Virus record (IMG/VR): IMGVR_UViG_3300019124_000010
Coordinates: 1 to 48,015 of that record
Reading direction: 5' to 3' (one strand)
DNA length: 48,015 nt
Source: a virus
Shown here: piece by piece, positions 16,347 through 47,365 of the stretch
Layout: every line of letters begins with the position of its first letter
Position numbering within the stretch: the first letter of the stretch is position 1
Notes under the pieces: generated by a model
Database searches by the model: none
Seen by the model: only the letters and a program-made list of their open reading frames with translations
Told to the model about the DNA's origin: nothing
Translations under genes and position numbers: made by a program

Positions 16347-17270
16347 ATGGGCAAACCAAATCCAAAAAGAATAAAACAAATGGCAGATGAGAGAGCTGAA
16401 AAGATAGAGGCTCTCTTAAATGCTTTTGAGGCTTTAATAGATCGCAATGCTGGCATTTTATCTGAAAGCCTGATAAAAGGCTTTGTAGATCAGCTGGAGG
16501 GCAAGGATGGCTTTATTTTAAGCCATGAACAAAACCTCAGAAAGCTGGAGCTACTGGATCAGGCTTATTCTCTCTTTTCTGAAAAGGAGGGCATGAGGAT
16601 CGCCACTGCTCTGATGGATGATATGGAGGCAATCATGCTCCTAAATGATCAGTATTTTACTGAGCTGATGGGAGGCAAAAAGGTTAAGAGTGATGATATT
16701 AAGAGAGTGATCAGAATGAGATTAGGCATTGATGAAACTGGAGAGCTGATCAGAGATGGTTATATGATGGGATTATTGCAAGATCCTACAGTAAGAGAGC
16801 AGATAAGATCCTTTGCTTTCCAGAGAGTGAGTGCTGGCATAGGCTTTCAGGATTTCAGGAAAGGCTTAAGAGATCTGATTGCTGGCAATGATGAAACTAT
16901 GGGAGCTTTTAAGCGGTTCTATAGAAACTATGCTTTTGATACTTATGCTCAAGTAGATGCCACAAATGGAGCTCTTTATGCACAAAAGCTAAAGCTCAAA
17001 TACTTCATCTACAATGGAGGTATCATGAAGGATAAGAAAGGCAAAGTGAGATCCAGAAAATTTTGTGTAGAGAGAGCTGGCAAAGTATTTAGCACTGAGG
17101 AGGCTGAGAAATGGAAAAATGATAAAGATCTCACAGCTGTAGATAGTAAAAGCACTTATGTTTGGCAGATCCAGAGAGGAGGGCATGGCTGTAGGCACTC
17201 AATAGATTGGATCAGTGAGGAGCTGGCTTTTCAGCTACGGCCTGAGCTAGATCCAGAAAATAAAGAATAA
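16347..17270 (+). CDS. MuF-like minor head / head morphogenesis protein
   Basis: 307 residues. The helical N-domain (about 1-200) ends in FKRFYRNYAFDTYAQVDATN, characteristic of MuF proteins. The C-terminal part has the signature SRKFCVERAGKVFSTEEAEK and then GGHGCRHSIDWISEE (about 279-293), with conserved Cys and His. MuF-like proteins attach to the portal inside the head. The gene lies 11 bp after the portal gene. No toxin domain is fused to its end, which is otherwise common in this family. Confidence 0.82.
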   Translation: MGKPNPKRIKQMADERAEKIEALLNAFEALIDRNAGILSESLIKGFVDQLEGKDGFILSHEQNLRKLELLDQAYSLFSEKEGMRIATALMDDMEAIMLLNDQYFTELMGGKKVKSDDIKRVIRMRLGIDETGELIRDGYMMGLLQDPTVREQIRSFAFQRVSAGIGFQDFRKGLRDLIAGNDETMGAFKRFYRNYAFDTYAQVDATNGALYAQKLKLKYFIYNGGIMKDKKGKVRSRKFCVERAGKVFSTEEAEKWKNDKDLTAVDSKSTYVWQIQRGGHGCRHSIDWISEELAFQLRPELDPENKE

Positions 17271-17297
17271 GTATTTTTATGAGCAGATAATAATTTT

Positions 17298-17305
17298 TAT
17301 ATTTG
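17298..17305 (+). promoter_or_regulatory. Promoter of the candidate ncRNA
   Basis: TATATTTG is an exact TAnnTTTG -7 box after a T-rich -33 region. The expected start is about 17311, just where the paired region begins, and no ORF of useful length follows. Confidence 0.6.
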
Positions 17306-17310
17306 CTCCA

Positions 17311-17580
17311 GTAACATTAAAAACCCTTGAAAAGGAGGGGTTTCAGAAATGATGAAAGCAGATAGGGCTTGGAGTAGCTAACTAAGCTCTGGCTGTGTAA
17401 GGGGCAAAACCCTATCCCTCCGCTTAATATGCTTTTAGCTGATCAGGATTAGCTCTGAAAGGCAAAAGATAGCACTCAGGCGAAGCTGAGAATTATAATT
17501 TGTTTGCAATCGCTACGATTATGCTGTGCAGATGCTACGATTAAAAAAATTAAAGCCTCCAACTAAGGAGGCTTTTAGTT
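17311..17580 (+). ncRNA. Candidate structured non-coding RNA (about 265 nt)
   Basis: This gene-free segment has many complementary pairs. AAACCC (17321-17326) pairs with GGGTTT (17338-17343). AAAGCA+GATAGGG (17355-17367) pairs with CCCTATC (17410-17416) and TGCTTT (17430-17435), a 13-bp helix with a 13-nt one-sided bulge. The bulge contains CCCTCC (17416-17421, sharing one base), which is complementary to GGAGGG (17334-17339), a possible pseudoknot. AGCTGAT/ATTAGCT (17437-17454) has a CAGG loop, and CTCAG/CTGAG closes 17476-17491. The sequence GCTACGATTA occurs twice (17512, 17534). A consensus -7 box precedes it and an intrinsic terminator ends it. CpG, rare in coding DNA here, is frequent. 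It does not match tmRNA, RNase P, a group I or II intron, or a riboswitch that I know. Confidence 0.6.
17553..17580. terminator. Bidirectional terminator, ncRNA / DUF4468 gene
   Basis: AAAGCCTCC, loop AACTA, (A)GGAGGCTTTT on the plus strand; on the minus strand the same stem is followed by TTTAATTTTTTT. It ends both the rightward RNA and the leftward gene at 17598. Confidence 0.8.
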
Positions 17581-17597
17581 TAATGCACCACTCTCAC

Positions 17598-18116
17598 TCA
17601 CCACTTAATATCTTCTATCTTCTTTTTAATGCCAGATTGAAAAGCAAACATGATAGATCTCACTCCTTCATCAAAGTTTTGCAGCTTCTCCTGCTGCCAC
17701 TTCTGATCAGCCTTAGATTTGAACTTAAACTCTATACTCACTGGCTGAGGAGTTTCTCTAGGGCTATCCTTATCATACTCAGTAAAGTTGTATAGTTGCA
17801 CTCTGTATTTTCCATCTTTGAAAGCGATGGAGTAATTAAATAGCACTCTGTTTGTGTATCTGGAGAAAGATATTTTGTAATCGTACAAAAAAGCTCCCTT
17901 TCCCTCTATCAGTCCAGCTGCCTCATCCTGATTTGTGATGGAGCTGCCAGAGATCAGATCATTGATCAGGCTTTTTGTAGCACTCATCAGCTCCCCCTTA
18001 GTACCTGAGGCACTATCAATGAGCTCATAGTGTATAGATCCATTTTTCAGAGGTATATCCTGAGCATACAGGCTTAGAGTAGCAAAAGTAATCAGGCTTA
18101 GTAGTAATCTTTTCAT
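17598..18116 (-). CDS. Secreted DUF4468-like protein (probable lysogenic-conversion gene)
   Basis: 172 residues. It has a classical signal peptide MKRLLLSLITFATLSLYAQD (cleavage probably after YAQ). The mature part, LKNGSIHYELIDSA, GAFLYDYKISFSRYTNRVL, FNYSIAFKDGKYRVQLYNFT and PVSIEFKFKSKADQKW, follows the DUF4468 'TBP-like fold' family of exported Bacteroidota proteins. It is a host-type secreted protein with no evident role in virion assembly, read against the structural genes and bounded by terminators, i.e. a moron. Three TGCAAA half-sites lie just upstream (18129-18155). The start at 18116 is set by the signal peptide; the longer frame has no merit. Confidence 0.78.
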   Translation of the reverse strand: MKRLLLSLITFATLSLYAQDIPLKNGSIHYELIDSASGTKGELMSATKSLINDLISGSSITNQDEAAGLIEGKGAFLYDYKISFSRYTNRVLFNYSIAFKDGKYRVQLYNFTEYDKDSPRETPQPVSIEFKFKSKADQKWQQEKLQNFDEGVRSIMFAFQSGIKKKIEDIKW

Positions 18117-18124
18117 GGAGACAA

Positions 18125-18156
18125 ATTTTGCAAAGGTTATGCAAAGATTTTGCAAA
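18125..18156 (-). promoter_or_regulatory. TGCAAA repeats upstream of the DUF4468 gene
   Basis: TTTTGCAAAG, ATGCAAAG and TTTTGCAAA place three TGCAAA half-sites about 11 bp apart immediately upstream of the leftward start at 18116. The half-site equals that of the repressor operators at 46613-46651, and TTTGC also suits a -33 or -7 box. Confidence 0.45.
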
Positions 18157-18159
18157 AAA

Positions 18160-18181
18160 AAGCCTCCCTAGAAAAGGAGGC
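18160..18181 (-). terminator. Terminator of the leftward small-gene operon
   Basis: On the minus strand GGCCTCC, loop TTTTCTAG, GGAGGC is followed by TTTTTTTT, ending the unit 18211-19278. Confidence 0.75.
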
Positions 18182-18210
18182 CGCTTTTATAAACCGAACC
18201 TATGAAAAAA

Positions 18211-18534
18211 CTAGTTTAAATCAGGATTTTGCTCTTTCATTTTTGATAAGAGATCCAGAGCGAGCTTGCCTATTGGATCATTCGCCTCAAATTCATCTTT
18301 CTGATTATTGTAATGATCCATTAAATCATCCAGAGCCTCCTGAGGAGTGGCAAACACTACGCACTCACAGAGCTGCCCCATAGATTGAGATGATTTCGCA
18401 AAAACAAGGTAAGCAAACCTGTGCCCATCCTCATCCTCTCCTTTAGGTTGTACCTCCAGCACTGGAGCTGATTGTAGCTTATCATCCAGAATAAAAAATA
18501 CCTTATCTCCTTCCTTAAATTTGGGTTGATACAT
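18211..18534 (-). CDS. Hypothetical protein, leftward operon
   Basis: 107 residues. It begins with MYQPKFKEGDKVFFILDDKL and APVLEVQPKGEDEDGHRFAY, a KOW/SH3-like beta start, followed by an acidic helical end (QEALDDLMDHYNNQKDEFEA). Last gene of the leftward unit; its start overlaps the end of the upstream gene by 20 bp. Function unknown. Confidence 0.6.
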   Translation of the reverse strand: MYQPKFKEGDKVFFILDDKLQSAPVLEVQPKGEDEDGHRFAYLVFAKSSQSMGQLCECVVFATPQEALDDLMDHYNNQKDEFEANDPIGKLALDLLSKMKEQNPDLN

Positions 18535-18997
18535 GAATAGATTTTTTTACAGTTAATGATTTGATTTCTTTTTGCTTTAGTAGCTGCTCCAGCCTCAGAT
18601 CCATCATCAAAGTATCATGAGTAAATGGAGCATACATTCTGCTTTTCTTGCTGATGGCTACCTTCTGCTCTCTGTATGGCAGTTTATCAGTAAAAATGAT
18701 CACTGGATCACAATTTTTTTTTACCATAAAAGAGAGCCTCTGGAAAATAGTGCTCAGGATCATTGCCTGAGGATTAGAGAGATCTCTAGGCTGGCTGGCA
18801 TCCAGTAAATTCCAGCCTCCATACTCAGATCTGTAATAAATCAGGAGGCCACTGGAGGAAAGTTTCAGCCTGTCAATAGTAATAGCATTGATGTGAGGTG
18901 CTGGCTTGAATGATATGGGATCACTAAGCCTTAGTATGCCTCCATTGCCCACCTCTGTTTGCAGCATCTCTCTGATCAACTGATAATATTTGCTCAT
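18515..18997 (-). CDS. Hypothetical protein, leftward operon
   Basis: 160 residues of mixed alpha/beta character: KYYQLIREMLQTEVGNGGIL, INAITIDRLKLSSSGLLIYY, and a basic tail LTVKKSIHVSTQI. No motif recognised. Its start overlaps the stop of the gene at 18994 (ATGA on the minus strand), so it is coupled. Confidence 0.6.
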   Translation of the reverse strand: MSKYYQLIREMLQTEVGNGGILRLSDPISFKPAPHINAITIDRLKLSSSGLLIYYRSEYGGWNLLDASQPRDLSNPQAMILSTIFQRLSFMVKKNCDPVIIFTDKLPYREQKVAISKKSRMYAPFTHDTLMMDLRLEQLLKQKEIKSLTVKKSIHVSTQI

Positions 18998-19278
18998 GCC
19001 AGCTCCTTCTCTTTTAGAGCCTTAGATAATCTTTGTTCAATCACTACTCTCCTTTGTACCTCCACTGACTTCACTCTCTCAGTTTCTAGGCATTTCAATA
19101 GTGTGGCTTTGCTATCCACTATCCTAGCCGCTATTTTGAAAGAGGAAATGATCTTGCCTTTTACTGGAGTAATAATGTGGAAAAAACCTTTGTACTCATG
19201 AGGGAAATCAGCTGGCTCAAGTTCAGCTGAGAAATTGTGTTGCTGGCTGTAGCTGCCAGATAGAATGATTTTTTGCAT
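18994..19278 (-). CDS. Hypothetical protein, first gene of leftward operon
   Basis: 94 residues with MQKIILSGSYSQQHNFSAEL at the start and a basic helical C-terminus (SVEVQRRVVIEQRLSKALKE). Not recognised. It is preceded by the inverted copy of the 16-bp palindrome, with TATATTTG as an exact -7 box (19308-19301), giving a leader of about 15 nt. Confidence 0.6.
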   Translation of the reverse strand: MQKIILSGSYSQQHNFSAELEPADFPHEYKGFFHIITPVKGKIISSFKIAARIVDSKATLLKCLETERVKSVEVQRRVVIEQRLSKALKEKELA

Positions 19279-19300
19279 AGATATGATCAGTTTAATGAAA

Positions 19301-19320
19301 CAAATATAAGTAAACTTATA
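19301..19320 (-). promoter_or_regulatory. Leftward promoter with TATAAGTTTACTTATA palindrome
   Basis: On the minus strand the perfect palindrome (19320-19305) runs directly into TATATTTG (19308-19301), the exact -7 consensus. It drives 19278 to 18211. Confidence 0.7.
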
Positions 19321-19438
19321 TCACATAAACCAAAAAATATTTGTTAGAAATTTTCTGGATCTGGATAAGGGCATCACTGTAGCTGCTTGAGATAATCATC
19401 TCATTTTTGTGCCCGATATTAAAAATGTAAACTCTCAT
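19316..19438 (-). CDS. Small hypothetical protein
   Basis: 40 residues from the ATG at 19438: MRVYIFNIGHKNEMIISSSY, SDALIQIQKISNKYFLVYVI. The alternating hydrophobic pattern suggests a small alpha/beta unit. It lies 19 bp downstream of the gene at 19458; its stop touches the next promoter palindrome. The longer frame to 19519 would overlap that upstream gene and is not preferred. Confidence 0.4.
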   Translation of the reverse strand: MRVYIFNIGHKNEMIISSSYSDALIQIQKISNKYFLVYVI

Positions 19439-19457
19439 AGGGTGTGATTTTAAGGGA

Positions 19458-19697
19458 TTAAAGATTTGCATATAAGTGATCAAAAGCGGCATCATAGGCC
19501 TCACAGGTAGTAAACTCATGATAGTAGAGCATTACTGTCTGGATCTTCTCAATCTTAGGGAGAAAGGTGAGTTTTCTGGCCTCTCTTAGCAGGAAAGCAT
19601 GATGCTTTTCAGTTTCGCTTAACTGAGGCTGTTTAGGGTAACATTTCCTGTAAAGCTCCATTAATTGCTCTGATGTGTAGCTGATTTCAGTGCTCAT
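19458..19697 (-). CDS. Small helical hypothetical protein
   Basis: 79 residues, helical: MSTEISYTSEQLMELYRKCY, AFLLREARKLTFLPKIEKIQ, TVMLYYHEFTTCEAYDAAFD. It has the AATCACAAATCAC-type leader upstream of its start (19697). Function unknown. Confidence 0.55.
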   Translation of the reverse strand: MSTEISYTSEQLMELYRKCYPKQPQLSETEKHHAFLLREARKLTFLPKIEKIQTVMLYYHEFTTCEAYDAAFDHLYANL

Positions 19698-19727
19698 GTG
19701 ATTTGTGATTTATTGGTGATTGAATTG

Positions 19728-19753
19728 GAGCTTAGGCATGAAAACCTAAGCTC
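19728..19753. terminator. Hairpin between leftward genes
   Basis: GAGCTTAGG (19728-19736) and CCTAAGCTC (19745-19753) form a perfect 9-bp stem with an 8-nt loop. The T-rich tail is on the plus-strand side only, so for the leftward genes it may act as a processing or stability element. Confidence 0.5.
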
Positions 19754-19762
19754 TCTTTAGTT

Positions 19763-20188
19763 TTATTCAAAAGCTGCCTCAATATCTATCTGGTGAAGCC
19801 ATGCCCACTCCACTCCCTCATCCTCAATAGCCTCAAAAATGAGCTCTATGCCAGCTCTGATTGCTCCTCTCTTGCTGTAATATGTGCCGCCATTAAATTC
19901 CTCCAGAGCTTCAAAGTACATTTCCTGATGATCCATTGAAGCACTCTCTATCCATCTATCAAAGATCCTTTCCACTAACTGATAAAGCCAGCTGTTTACG
20001 CTGAGCAGAGATGAGAAATCCTCTTTACGGTAAACCTTCACAGCCTTAAATACTTTTTTAGTGTCTGGATTATAAAAAACAAGATCTCCAGCATTTATCC
20101 TCAATCCTGTGAGGGTGCAAACTGATGGAAATTTTGCTTTGATCAGAGGGATATTAACTTTTTGGAGAGATGATAATGTTGTTGCCAT
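19763..20188 (-). CDS. Hypothetical protein under tandem-operator control
   Basis: 141 residues from the ATG at 20188. It contains INAGDLVFYNPDTKKVFKAV, where CTLTGLRINAGDLVFYN looks like a small treble-clef-like or beta hairpin without a full set of Cys. It continues with LLSVNSWLYQLVERIFDRW, the helix EMYFEALEEFN, and an acidic C-terminus. Function unknown. It is the first gene behind a pair of contiguous 19-bp operators, so it belongs to the same regulon as the genes at 42378 and 47388. The leader is ATTATCAAATCACAATCAC. Confidence 0.6.
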   Translation of the reverse strand: MATTLSSLQKVNIPLIKAKFPSVCTLTGLRINAGDLVFYNPDTKKVFKAVKVYRKEDFSSLLSVNSWLYQLVERIFDRWIESASMDHQEMYFEALEEFNGGTYYSKRGAIRAGIELIFEAIEDEGVEWAWLHQIDIEAAFE

Positions 20189-20203
20189 GTGATTGTGATT
20201 TGA

Positions 20204-20251
20204 TAATGCAATATTACAAAGCTGTTTTGTAATTACAAAGCAATTTTGTAA
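20204..20251 (-). promoter_or_regulatory. Leftward promoter with tandem 19-bp operators
   Basis: TTACAAAGCTGTTTTGTAA (20214-20232) and TTACAAAGCAATTTTGTAA (20233-20251) are directly adjacent. Read leftward, the outer operator supplies a -33 TTTG and, 19 nt later, TAATATTG forms the -7 box. Occupancy of either site would block the polymerase. Confidence 0.8.
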
Positions 20252-20297
20252 AAATATTTTTAAAAGCTCCTTTTTATCGTTCAAAATCGTTCAAAAT

Positions 20298-20400
20298 AAG
20301 CTGATGCTTAGCTGAGCTTGAGCTGAGCTATAGGTGAGCTAGTGCTATGCTTAAGCCTATGCTTAGCAATAAATAAATAAATAAATAAAAGAAAGAAAGA
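20298..20400. repeat. Non-coding look-alike of the origin tract
   Basis: GCTGATGCTTAGCTGAGCTT, GAGCTGAGCTATAGGTGAGC and related (G/C)AGCT repeats run from 20301 to 20340. Then GCTTAGCAATAAATAAATAA begins an AT-only ATAA tract (20361-20390) and an AGAAAGAAAGAAG tail. The order and the junction sequence CTTAGCAATAAATAAA are those of the tract inside the initiator gene (1885-1977), but here nothing is encoded. A second origin or a partition/termination site is possible. A 9-bp direct repeat CGTTCAAAA (20279, 20288) borders it. Confidence 0.5.
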
Positions 20401-20434
20401 AGTAAGGAAATAAGGGCGGCCTGAGGCCTACAGC

Positions 20435-20483
20435 ACAATTTTGTAAAAAATATTTTGAGGAAATAATTTTACTTATATGTTTA
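20435..20483 (+). promoter_or_regulatory. Promoter of the capsid-module leader with decayed operator
   Basis: ACAATTTTGTAA (20436-20447) keeps the right half of the 19-bp operator. TTTTACTTATATGTTTA (20467-20483) provides a near-consensus -7 box (TATGTTTA, 20476-20483). The first gene starts at 20511. Confidence 0.5.
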
Positions 20484-20510
20484 CAACCAAACTGATAAAA
20501 ATACTGGCAC

Positions 20511-20867
20511 ATGGAAATGATTACACTGAAAAGAGGCAATGAAACAAAGCAAGTTTCTCGGCTTCAATGGATAAACATGAAATCAGGTAACACCTTCGGA
20601 TGGGAGGAGTTAATTGAAACTCCAGCTGAACTATTACAAACTCCATCAGCTCCTAGTAAACCACAGGGAGAAAGCGGTGAGGGTGCTGCAAATGTGGAGG
20701 CAGAGCAAAGCTCTACTGAGCAAGAGGTATCAGTAGATGATCAAATTGCCGCTCTGGAGGAGCAGAAAAAAGCTGAGGGCTTAACCGCTCAGCAAAAAGC
20801 AAACCTTACAAAGCAAATCAATGAGCTCAAAAAGAAAAAAGAAAGCAATGATAATCCTCAAAAATAA
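20511..20867 (+). CDS. Hypothetical protein at the start of the capsid operon
   Basis: 118 residues: a beta-like head (MITLKRGNETKQVSRLQWIN), a Ser/Glu/Gln-rich disordered middle and a Lys/Glu coiled-coil end (AALEEQKKAEGLTAQQKANL). Either ATG (20511 or 20517) is possible. It overlaps the next gene by 20 bp. Small disordered proteins ahead of scaffold/capsid genes can be head decoration or completion proteins, but nothing specific was recognised. Confidence 0.6.
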   Translation: MEMITLKRGNETKQVSRLQWINMKSGNTFGWEELIETPAELLQTPSAPSKPQGESGEGAANVEAEQSSTEQEVSVDDQIAALEEQKKAEGLTAQQKANLTKQINELKKKKESNDNPQK

Positions 20868-21015
20868 AGATACTGGAGTGGAGAGCCCATTTACTCAGGA
20901 GGAGTATGATGCTCTCAAAAAACACCCAAACTTATTTAACCGATTTGTGGAGGTAAAACAGGAGAAAGCTCCTACTCCTCCAGAGCTAGAAAAGCTCACA
21001 AAGAGTAAGAAGTAA
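20848..21015 (+). CDS. Small hypothetical protein
   Basis: 55 residues from the ATG at 20848: MIILKNKDTGVESPFTQEEY followed by an LKKHPNLFNRFVEV segment. The pattern of a short strand, a T.EEY..LK..P.L..RF.V motif and a basic tail resembles the C-terminal piece of small phage head proteins. The alternative start at 20821 adds only a Lys-rich stretch. Confidence 0.5.
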   Translation: MIILKNKDTGVESPFTQEEYDALKKHPNLFNRFVEVKQEKAPTPPELEKLTKSKK

Positions 21016-43757: not shown

Positions 43758-44933
43758 CTAAGCAGTTTTTTTCTCAATAGCTCTCTCCATTCTATCCATT
43801 GCATCATCTACAGTTCTATCCATGATCTTTGCATAGGTAGCGGTCTGCTTCAAATTCCTATGGCCTAATATCTTACTTACTACCTCAATAGGGATAGCCA
43901 GCTCCAGAGCGATTGTGGCAAAAGAGTGCCTTGCTGTGTGGAATGTTACATGCTTATTAATCTCGGCTAGTTCAATCAGGATCTTTAGATACTCATTTGC
44001 TTTCTGATTTGAGATCAGCTTCCTATCTCCTATCAGCTGGATCAGCTCTTTCAATCGGCTTGTGAGCTTTATAGATACGATCTCTCCTACTCCTTTCTCT
44101 CCAGTGGCTTTTGATGTAACACATATAAGCCTATCTCCTACAATAAGCTCTCCTGATGGCAATCTCTGGAGATCTTCAAACCTCAGGCCTGAGTAGCATC
44201 CCACTAAAAAATAAAAGCCTATCAGCTGGAGTGATGGATGGAGAGAGGGCTCTTTACATTTCAGGTAAAGCCTTTCTACCTCCTCCATGCTCAGAGGTAT
44301 TTTGAGATTTTCTACATACTTAAACTTAAAAGATTTGAAAGGATAGTGATCAGTGATCTTATCAATATCTCTGGCTCTATTAAAGATCATTCTGATAAAT
44401 TTCAGATTTCCCCATATTGAATTGCCAGACAACTCACACACCGATTGCAGCCATCCCTTATACTCCTCCAGCCACTTATGATTGATCCTAGTGAATGGCA
44501 ATGATCCTCTCTCAAATCGCTCCACTTTCCTCAGCTCTTTTCTGTAAACTCTGATAGTGGCTGGATCTCTTAAACCTTTCTCCTCCATGTGATTGATCAC
44601 TGAGGCGGCATACTTTTTAAAATCATGGCTCTCCTCTGATTTTGTGAGCTGATTGATCAGATCCAGATTAACTGTTTCGCCTACTATTTTTCGCTCCATC
44701 AGTTTTGCCTGTAGATCCATTTTCATTCTCTGGATCGTAGAATTGATCAGAAAGTGATTTGAGATCTTTTTACTTACCCTCTCCTCATCTTCGCTCCAGT
44801 GCTCAGGAATAACCTTAAAGCCTGTGGAAACTTTCTTTTGCTTTCTATCAATGATCATTTGAATGATGATAGGGCACTCTCCCTTTGTGTTTGGTGCATC
44901 TTTTCTCAAGATGGCTTTGATGGATAGTTTCAT
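43758..44933 (-). CDS. int: Tyrosine recombinase integrase
   Basis: 391 residues. An N-terminal arm-binding domain (about 1-90: KGECPIIIQMIIDRKQKKVS), a SAM-like core-binding domain (about 105-195) and a catalytic domain with GCYSGLRFEDL (R251), VTSKATGEKG (K275 or K280), HTARHSF (H332, R335), LGHRN (H358) and the nucleophile Y367 in TATYAKIMD. All catalytic residues are present. The architecture is that of Bacteroidota phage and conjugative-element integrases. It faces away from an attP region with GGGAAACAT arm-type repeats. The leader holds the usual ATCACAAATCAC (reverse strand). Confidence 0.95.
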   Translation of the reverse strand: MKLSIKAILRKDAPNTKGECPIIIQMIIDRKQKKVSTGFKVIPEHWSEDEERVSKKISNHFLINSTIQRMKMDLQAKLMERKIVGETVNLDLINQLTKSEESHDFKKYAASVINHMEEKGLRDPATIRVYRKELRKVERFERGSLPFTRINHKWLEEYKGWLQSVCELSGNSIWGNLKFIRMIFNRARDIDKITDHYPFKSFKFKYVENLKIPLSMEEVERLYLKCKEPSLHPSLQLIGFYFLVGCYSGLRFEDLQRLPSGELIVGDRLICVTSKATGEKGVGEIVSIKLTSRLKELIQLIGDRKLISNQKANEYLKILIELAEINKHVTFHTARHSFATIALELAIPIEVVSKILGHRNLKQTATYAKIMDRTVDDAMDRMERAIEKKTA

Positions 44934-45779: not shown

Positions 45780-46544
45780 TCACAGGCCTGATTTGAGCAG
45801 CCTAGTAAGCTCATTTACCCTCTCCTCCAGTGCATTGAGTTTCTCAGTATTATCTTTTATTTGCTGATTACCTTCCTCATTCTGAGGGCTAGGGATATTA
45901 GTAGTGGTTTTGGATCTTACAAACCAAATCTCTTTGATCTCTTTGTAATCCTTTCTTATCTCCTTATAAAAGGGGTTATCAGCAATGAGCTTAACGCAAT
46001 CCTCACAAAGAGTAAGCCTCCTGATATAAGCATCCTCTAAGCACACCACTACATAAACTCCATCTCCAGCTAAAGATTTCCAGCGATCCTTTGAGATCTT
46101 TACTGATCCTACAAAGCAAAGAGGAGGTAAAGCAGGGTGCATAGCATCATTAGGCACTACAAAAAATCTCACTGGCTCAGTGTTATCGTAATAGGCAATG
46201 AACTTATCTAAACTCTGGATAAACTTCTCATCCTGACAACTCCTAGCATAAGCCTGTATCTGATCAGCCTTTACTATCCTGATCCAATCCTCATCACTGA
46301 TGATAGTTACTTTTCGCTCTGGCTGGAGGCCAAATTCTGAGGGGTGGATCTTATACAACTCAGCAAACTTTTGCAGCACCCAAGTAGGCACTGATCTTTT
46401 GCCAGATAAGCTCAGAGATAGTGAGCTAGTATTCCAGCCTGTGAGTTTTGCAAATTCAGCATCCGATTTGATTTTTCCGCTCTCTCTTAGTTCATTATAA
46501 ATCTCTCTAAATCTGTCGTTTGGTTCAGGGTTGTTAGGTATCAT
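45780..46544 (-). CDS. Prophage repressor, HTH + S24-like domain lacking catalytic residues
   Basis: 254 residues from the ATG at 46544. The N-terminal HTH (about 10-68) contains SDAEFAKLTGWNTSSLSLSL and GKRSVPTWVLQKFAELY. The S24/LexA-like fold follows: FFVVPNDAMHPALPPLCFVG (about 127-146), where self-cleaving repressors have (G/N)DSM with the Ser nucleophile but this one has NDAM (A134), and DAYIRRLTL, where Lys is replaced by Arg. DGVYVVV and IWFVR strands complete the fold. A C-terminal coiled coil (about 225-254) is added. It should not self-cleave, so induction must use another route. Divergent from the Cro-like gene. Confidence 0.82.
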   Translation of the reverse strand: MIPNNPEPNDRFREIYNELRESGKIKSDAEFAKLTGWNTSSLSLSLSGKRSVPTWVLQKFAELYKIHPSEFGLQPERKVTIISDEDWIRIVKADQIQAYARSCQDEKFIQSLDKFIAYYDNTEPVRFFVVPNDAMHPALPPLCFVGSVKISKDRWKSLAGDGVYVVVCLEDAYIRRLTLCEDCVKLIADNPFYKEIRKDYKEIKEIWFVRSKTTTNIPSPQNEEGNQQIKDNTEKLNALEERVNELTRLLKSGL

Positions 46545-46612
46545 TAGCGTGTTGTGTAAGTAATCTATCAAGGCTTTACCACTTTTTTAAACAAAAAAAT
46601 ATTTGCAAGCTG

Positions 46613-46665
46613 TTTGCGTATGCAAATAAGCCATAAGTTTGCACATGCAAAGAGGATGCAAACAG
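46613..46665. promoter_or_regulatory. Repressor/Cro switch operators
   Basis: TTTGCGTATGCAAA (46613-46626) and TTTGCACATGCAAA (46638-46651), 25 bp apart, share the palindrome TTTGC-N4-GCAAA. Half-sites TTTGCAAG (46602) and ATGCAAACAG (46656) flank them. They fill the gap between the divergent repressor (46544, leftward) and HTH gene (46732, rightward), as in a lambda OR. Confidence 0.75.
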
Positions 46666-46731: not shown

Positions 46732-46974
46732 ATGCACTTACCCGACAAAGCCAGAGAGAGCCTCAGGAAATGGGCATCCAGAAAGTATGTATCAAAGATT
46801 GCTGAAAAGGCAGAATGTACTCCACAGCATGTGAGAGATGTGCTGAAAGGAAATAGCACTGATGGAAATGTAATCAGGATTACACTCCAGCTCAGAAAAG
46901 AGGTGCTCATTCAAGAGAATGAGGCGTTTCAATTCCTTACCCATGCAATGCAATTAAACAACACCACTTTATAA
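46732..46974 (+). CDS. Cro-like helix-turn-helix protein
   Basis: 80 residues from the ATG at 46732, right after the leader AATCACAATCAATCACAAAA. The HTH is RKWASRKYVSKIAEKAECTP, QHVRDVLKGNSTDGNVI, where ECTPQHVRDVL is the recognition helix; the C-terminal helix may dimerise. It is divergent from the S24-like repressor across two shared operators, the arrangement of Cro. The longer frame from 46639 overlaps the operators and is not used. Confidence 0.75.
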   Translation: MHLPDKARESLRKWASRKYVSKIAEKAECTPQHVRDVLKGNSTDGNVIRITLQLRKEVLIQENEAFQFLTHAMQLNNTTL

Positions 46975-47339: not shown

Positions 47340-47365
47340 AAGCCTCCCAAATCACAAGGAGGCTT
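47340..47365 (+). terminator. Leader hairpin (attenuator-like)
   Basis: AAGCCTCC (47340-47347), loop CAAATCACAA, GGAGGCTT (47358-47365), just downstream of the tandem-operator promoter and before the first gene. No T-run follows, so it may pause, protect or regulate rather than stop the transcript. The loop contains the AATCACA motif. Confidence 0.5.

Follow-up and report, generated by a model that had tools for sequence, protein, structure and literature searches.

Temperate phages have been described as carrying exported or membrane proteins that exclude superinfecting phages, among them Ltp of phage TP-J34, Glo of Vibrio cholerae and SieA of P22, and the DUF4468 protein considered here may be of this kind. 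According to PMC3952083, Glo is a soluble periplasmic protein, and ltp sits among the lysogeny genes, with transcription in the prophage. The likeness of Ltp, Glo and SieA to DUF4468 is one of type, not of sequence. DUF4468 was already known as a family; exported copies recur in temperate phages and, in those read, end in a near-invariant aromatic residue. To our knowledge, no function is known for the family. A literature search largely outside subscription journals yielded no paper on its function, and in the text accessible there DUF4468 appeared in passing, as a weak HHpred match. The solved structures 4E6F (Bacteroides ovatus) and 4JHY (Parabacteroides distasonis) are the best structural matches of our protein, which differs from them in being phage-borne and is 12-17% identical to them in structural alignments.

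DUF4468 genes are also present in Flavobacterium phage 6H and in Acinetobacter phages (Vieuvirus). Five annotated phage regions, chosen from 35 records, all place the gene in the tail module. In 6H it lies directly before the tape-measure gene, in three Acinetobacter phages among other genes between those for the tail chaperone and the tape measure, and in the fourth before a long "tail component" gene. The Acinetobacter copies stand beside Rha, BRO or ORF6N regulators, an antirepressor or HicAB. These proteins resemble ours in being accessory, in having a signal peptide or a lipobox-like start and in ending in Trp (five read). The 6H and Vieuvirus copies are co-directional with the tail genes, whereas the copy described below is antisense, has its own hairpins and is preceded by operator-type half-sites.

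The window, meaning the whole stretch of DNA analysed, is the 48,015-base virus record IMGVR_UViG_3300019124_000010. Its phage is temperate, with a tyrosine integrase, an S24/CI-type repressor and an opposing small HTH gene; DnaB-like helicase, terminase, portal and tape-measure genes are also present. The host is probably a member of the Bacteroidota, judging from the DUF4468 family, the promoter type and the kin of the integrase. Searches with the portal, terminase, integrase, tape-measure and repressor proteins found no near kin: the best portal match was 34% identical (L002, an 8.9-kb fragment without a DUF4468 match) and the integrases reached 27-29% (L003, L004). The cassette and its surroundings comprise the following features.

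17552-17575, minus strand: terminator hairpin following the DUF4468 gene; its GCCTCC/GGAGGC stem recurs in the upstream hairpin
17598-18116, minus strand: DUF4468 gene, 172 aa, with a signal peptide and a Trp end (open reading frame, Pfam, PHROG and model)
18126-18158, no strand assigned: three 11-bp repeats (TTTTGCAAAGG, TTATGCAAAGA, TTTTGCAAAAA) with operator-type half-sites, in the gap that separates the start codon from the upstream hairpin
18161-18182, minus strand: terminator hairpin closing the upstream minus-strand genes, with a T tail that extends into the repeats
19301-19333, minus strand: candidate consensus Bacteroidota promoter TTG-N22-TATATTTG, before the genes at 18994-19278, 18515-18997 and 18211-18534

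The DUF4468 gene is read from an ATG at 18116 to a stop at 17598, and the mechanical open reading frame extends to a TTG at 18155. It lies antisense between the portal and tail genes, as the last gene of a minus-strand block (17598-20284, as read) that is flanked by a plus-strand gene ending at 17270 and by plus-strand genes from 20511 on; mechanical plus-strand open reading frames overlap this block. The original prediction of an antisense gene between its own terminators holds, with terminator-like minus-strand hairpins and T tails on both sides. The stem they share has a third copy at 47342, and terminator-like sites number 9 in 17200-20600, against a shuffle mean of 2.8. Three small minus-strand genes (18994-19278, 18515-18997 and 18211-18534) precede the upstream hairpin at 18182-18161, and the gap between this hairpin and the DUF4468 ATG measures 44 bases. 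The gene has a GC content of 39.3% vs 40.3% for the phage, and its tetranucleotide distance is ordinary (39% of windows lie at the same distance or closer); by this measure, it is thus not a recent import. The small genes in 18211-20284 lack above-cut-off Pfam and strong PHROG matches, and the product of 18515-18997 had no match in phages. About 280 bases before the downstream hairpin (17271-17550) hold no convincing gene, and no Rfam family matched in 17000-21000 at E up to 0.1.

Assignment to the family came from Pfam DUF4468 (PF14730; E=1.9e-5, 25.4 bits against a gathering cut-off of 22.6) and from phrog_4002 (E=2.5e-9, residues 1-153), with no other Pfam family at E up to 0.1. The signal peptide, likewise part of the prediction, was read by eye from the sequence and agrees with a model helix at residues 2-17, and the protein is accordingly predicted to be exported. 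The structure model (mean pLDDT 91.5, pTM 0.82) opens with a strand and a helix, continues with four strands and closes with a long C-terminal helix (135-171) that has Trp172 at its tip; it suggests a helix-grip (TBP-like) domain. Foldseek ranked 4e6f (E=6.8e-8) and 4jhy (E=2.9e-7) highest, and VIA-align gave Z 15.3 for 4e6f (146 aligned, 3.7 A) and Z 15.2 for 4jhy (142 aligned, 2.6 A). A single-sequence search retrieved no PDB chain at E up to 1, and a 52-sequence profile retrieved 4jhy (3.4e-6), 4e6f (2e-5) and two weak chains. The first other family in the Foldseek ranking was the N-terminal helix-grip domain of BamC (2laf, E=1.0e-4, probability 1.00), a protein of the periplasmic side of the outer membrane which, according to PMC3359395, carries two such domains. 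BamC was absent among the best 50 VIA-align rows, in which DUF4468 was followed by the helix-grip proteins Rv2186c, Flpp3 and Bet v 1-type at Z 11.6 and below. A tie to outer-membrane protein assembly is therefore a lead only. The best defence profile, GajA, matched poorly (E=0.014).

Used as the sole query, the window protein had no relative in viral contigs and none in phages by tblastn at E up to 1; its link to other phage copies thus draws on profiles and fold. Two viral records related through their integrases each carry a DUF4468 gene, and these copies, used as queries, led to 61 viral loci. A search with a mixed alignment contributed L018 as well, giving 62 viral records. In that mixed-alignment search L018, whose gene adjoins an integrase gene, was also the top tblastn match to the window protein. 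Among GenBank phages, tblastn at E up to 0.1 gave 35 records: 9 from Flavobacterium phages at 1e-15, some being two accessions of one phage, 25 from Acinetobacter phages at 5e-4 to 2e-2, and one other at 3e-2. Several of the Acinetobacter genes were already annotated as DUF4468. An alignment of 52 rows, comprising the window protein and 51 of 58 distinct relatives (L017, L043, L044, L065 and L081 left out by choice, L035 and L068 for want of a signal-like start), gave identities of 16-26% to the window protein, with K100, D101, G102 and Y104 invariant. The prediction had called DUF4468 a host-type family; a match in 34 of 395 sampled genomes of the phylum agrees with this, and the description is incomplete in that the 62 viral records match too.

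Copies in viral records are over-represented near integrases and record ends. An integrase match occurred in 33 of the 50 viral records examined out of 62, and DUF4468 lay within 5 kb of it in 17 of the 33 on a circular map, vs 7.8 expected (p=0.0004), and in 11 of 33 on a linear map. Within 5 kb of a record end lay 23 of 50 copies, vs 13.1 expected (p=0.0015). Both p-values assume that the records are independent of one another, and poor trimming of predicted prophages may have left bacterial DNA, including some of these copies, near record ends.

The C-terminal residue was readable in 62 of 64 loci tried (63 viral and one Chryseobacterium contig) and was Trp (51) or Phe (11) in all 62, that is, in 61 viral loci and the Chryseobacterium contig; the 58 distinct sequences gave 47 Trp and 11 Phe. 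Among control open reading frames of at least 100 aa from the same loci, 41 of 547 had a terminal Trp or Phe (5 had Trp), as did 9 of the 98 with signal-peptide-like starts (4 had Trp). Five annotated phage copies and the window protein (codon at 17598-17603 with the stop) also end in Trp. Such an end was considered as a mark specific to phages and rejected: of the 44 matched places in genomes 30 were read, one of them unreadable and one (L082) the same gene as L017, and 20 of the 29 readable loci have Trp or Phe too. A terminal Trp or Phe hence marks much of the DUF4468 family rather than phages. Outer-membrane proteins carry a C-terminal aromatic residue. In DUF4468 the terminal residue is usually preceded by Asp or Asn, and the family model is not a beta-barrel.

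The repeats before the gene have to be compared with the immunity region of the phage, which contains the following features.

43758-44933, minus strand: tyrosine integrase (Pfam and PHROG matches)
45780-46544, minus strand: CI/S24-type repressor (Peptidase_S24 slightly below cut-off; phrog_4, E=1e-12)
46602-46662, no strand assigned: putative operator region between the repressor and HTH genes, six half-sites including two TTTGC-N4-GCAAA palindromes
46614-46641, plus strand: candidate rightward promoter TTG-N17-TAAGTTTG within the operator region, made of two half-sites
46732-46974, plus strand: small HTH protein, encoded opposite the repressor and cro-like in its position (phrog_925, E=0.0094, weak)

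The half-sites of 46602-46662 are in mirror symmetry (TTTGC, +11 TTTGC, +9 GCAAA, +16 TTTGC, +9 GCAAA, +11 GCAAA), and this symmetry and the place of the region point to the repressor operator. Before the DUF4468 ATG, TGCAAA was found as predicted three times at an 11-bp step (18129-18134, 18140-18145 and 18151-18156), the half-site nearest the hairpin lying within the terminator T tail. The motif by itself is not enriched in the window (76 vs 64.9 expected). Its spacing is distinctive: GCAAA-N6-GCAAA occurs in the window only at 18130, 18141 and 46647 and TTTGC-N6-TTTGC only at 46602, so that all four N6 direct pairs are confined to the array and the operator region. In 1000 first-order Markov simulations, which averaged 0.386 such pairs, neither four pairs nor an N6 triple ever appeared, and an equally spaced triple, with any spacing from 1 to 19 allowed, came up in 3 of 300. 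A scoring matrix trained on the six operator half-sites only ranked the array pairs 5th and 6th, directly behind the four pairs used for training, and scored the array triple at 28.2, vs a maximum of 16.0 outside both regions. Second-order simulations reached the triple score in 0 of 300 and the pair score in 3 of 300. Since the pattern was proposed after sight of the sequence, both sets of simulations flatter the array to some degree. Chance is thus a poor explanation of the array. The next-best operator-like pair, a direct one at 11 bp (43817, score 16.9), lies inside the integrase gene.

The array is nonetheless no copy of the operator. The prediction that the same half-site forms the repressor operators stands for the core and for the 11-bp direct step and fails for the TTTGC-N4-GCAAA palindrome, which occurs only at 46613 and 46638 and is missing at the array. 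A repressor dimer would therefore need another binding mode there, or another protein would bind. The array is non-random and combines the operator half-site with the 11-bp step.

Where transcription of the gene would start bears on the direction of control. The Bacteroidetes consensus promoter, as given in PMC6847099, is TTTG/TANNTTTG, with the -7 element better written TAHHTTTG; the same paper reports leaders longer than 10 nt for 87% of predicted transcripts of F. johnsoniae, and PMC9723704 gives 5.5% of the mRNAs analysed as leaderless in F. psychrophilum. No exact TAnnTTTG precedes the window ATG. Four TTTG lie in or beside the array, each one mismatch from the consensus, and transcripts from them (taking the G as -5) would start about 32, 21, 10 and 1 bases before the ATG; two of these candidates would give leaders of at most 10 nt, unusual for F. 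johnsoniae on the figures of PMC6847099. Among relatives, TAnnTTTG occurs within 100 bp upstream in 14 of 57, vs 5.3% of random stretches from the same loci, a control that takes in coding DNA. The array occupies the sole core-promoter room of the gene, so a protein sitting on it would cover the candidate promoters, and repression would be the simplest consequence. If the repressor binds the array, the gene would most simply be off in the lysogen, the opposite of plain lysogenic conversion. The sequence at 19301-19333 is only consistent with a promoter, being one of 11 strict matches in the window, a number similar to that extrapolated for chance from a random rate of 0.96%. The promoter at 46614-46641 is likewise a proposal, given this chance-like number of strict matches and its atypical G at -9, a base virtually absent from that position in F. 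johnsoniae according to PMC6847099.

Upstream control was also compared in nine relative records. A repeated, operator-like palindrome was found in four (G002, G003, G010 and G021), in G010 and G021 classed as operator-like by its repetition, and in none of the four does it stand before DUF4468; the other five records showed no repeated palindrome. In G002 and G003, two GTGAAA-N3-TTTCAC palindromes precede the HTH gene and TTACGG-N4-CCGTAA precedes DUF4468. The latter begins 61-67 bases before the DUF4468 ATG in four of the nine records (L004, L026, L027, L031). A Chryseobacterium genome has 7 copies of it and none of the reversed control pattern, and the five of these seven sites that were read (among L008:1887 and L112-L116) lie near bacterial-looking genes. 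Some precede genes that we take to be TerD-like, bestrophin-like and perhaps SIR2-like. By this pattern these copies look tied to a host-type regulator, not to the phage repressor, and the window phage would represent a separate solution for the control of DUF4468.

We consider it most plausible, with a probability of roughly 45%, that the locus is a moron-type accessory cassette with an action on the envelope, perhaps superinfection exclusion, that is tuned by the immunity system. What we infer for its promoter, protein binding, direction of control and function is as follows. One gene with its own short upstream region and terminators on both sides would constitute such a cassette, with transcription most likely starting in the 44-bp gap before the ATG. 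Through the three phased half-sites the immunity protein of the phage, be it the S24 repressor or the small HTH protein, would occupy the core promoter and tune the gene, repression in the lysogen being more probable than activation. The protein, once in the envelope, would most likely alter the encounter of the cell with other phages, and superinfection exclusion is our best guess for the role of DUF4468. If this reading is true, DUF4468 could be a new family of superinfection-exclusion or envelope-modifying proteins, and the window adds a case in which such a gene is possibly tied to the immunity switch.

The original prediction had proposed a lysogenic-conversion gene that might be coordinated with the lysogenic state. 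In lysogenic conversion proper, expression from the prophage would alter the envelope of the lysogen, and a phage regulator would use the half-sites to activate the gene or spare it from shutdown. Supporting this are a self-contained antisense cassette between hairpins, a product predicted to be exported, half-sites that are real, and recurrence of the family in temperate phages, where relatives lie near integrases and record ends more often than expected. Direct repeats one helical turn apart also recall the sites of lambda CII (TTGC-N6-TTGC); the step here is 11 bp. However, the array fills the core-promoter room, which is the place of a repressor, and no candidate for an activator was found. 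Coordination with the lysogenic state is thus possible, but as worded it is not supported by a geometry that favours repression over expression in the lysogen, and the four relatives with a repeated palindrome but none before DUF4468 weigh against a link to the repressor. The geometry is better matched by a cassette that the immunity system tunes, and probably represses, than by lysogenic conversion coordinated by the repressor, which we regard as doubtful.

The repeats might alternatively be promoter-like sequence only, with no role for a repressor. Each repeat contains a coding-strand TTTG one mismatch from TAnnTTTG, and by PMC6847099, which gives this consensus, TTTG forms the -33 element of Bacteroidota promoters and also closes their -7 element. 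A promoter-like origin accounts poorly for the common GC core, the exact 11-bp step and the matrix rank, or for a triple absent from 1000 and from 300 simulations and an N6 step found elsewhere only in the operator region, and it seems to us similarly unlikely.

A virion or late function, with the protein made late to aid assembly or lysis, would suit the 6H copy directly before the tape-measure gene and the tail-module position in four Acinetobacter phages, but appears improbable given that the window gene is antisense and starts with a signal peptide (or, elsewhere, a lipobox-like sequence), that many copies lie near integrases instead, and that the Acinetobacter slot also houses regulators or a HicAB pair, which are accessory genes. 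More speculative still, and in our view very improbable, is a wider scheme in which phage DUF4468 proteins, through a BamC-like helix-grip domain and a free C-terminal Trp or Phe reminiscent of the terminal aromatic residue of outer-membrane proteins, would act as envelope effectors on the outer-membrane protein assembly machinery, altering receptor assembly and so excluding other phages; this would apply to temperate phages of two phyla and would here be wired to the immunity switch by a direct-repeat variant of the operator.

Within the family, one prophage (L004:7945-9028) carries two adjacent DUF4468 genes that are 56% identical and collinear with both a small gene and that of the integrase.
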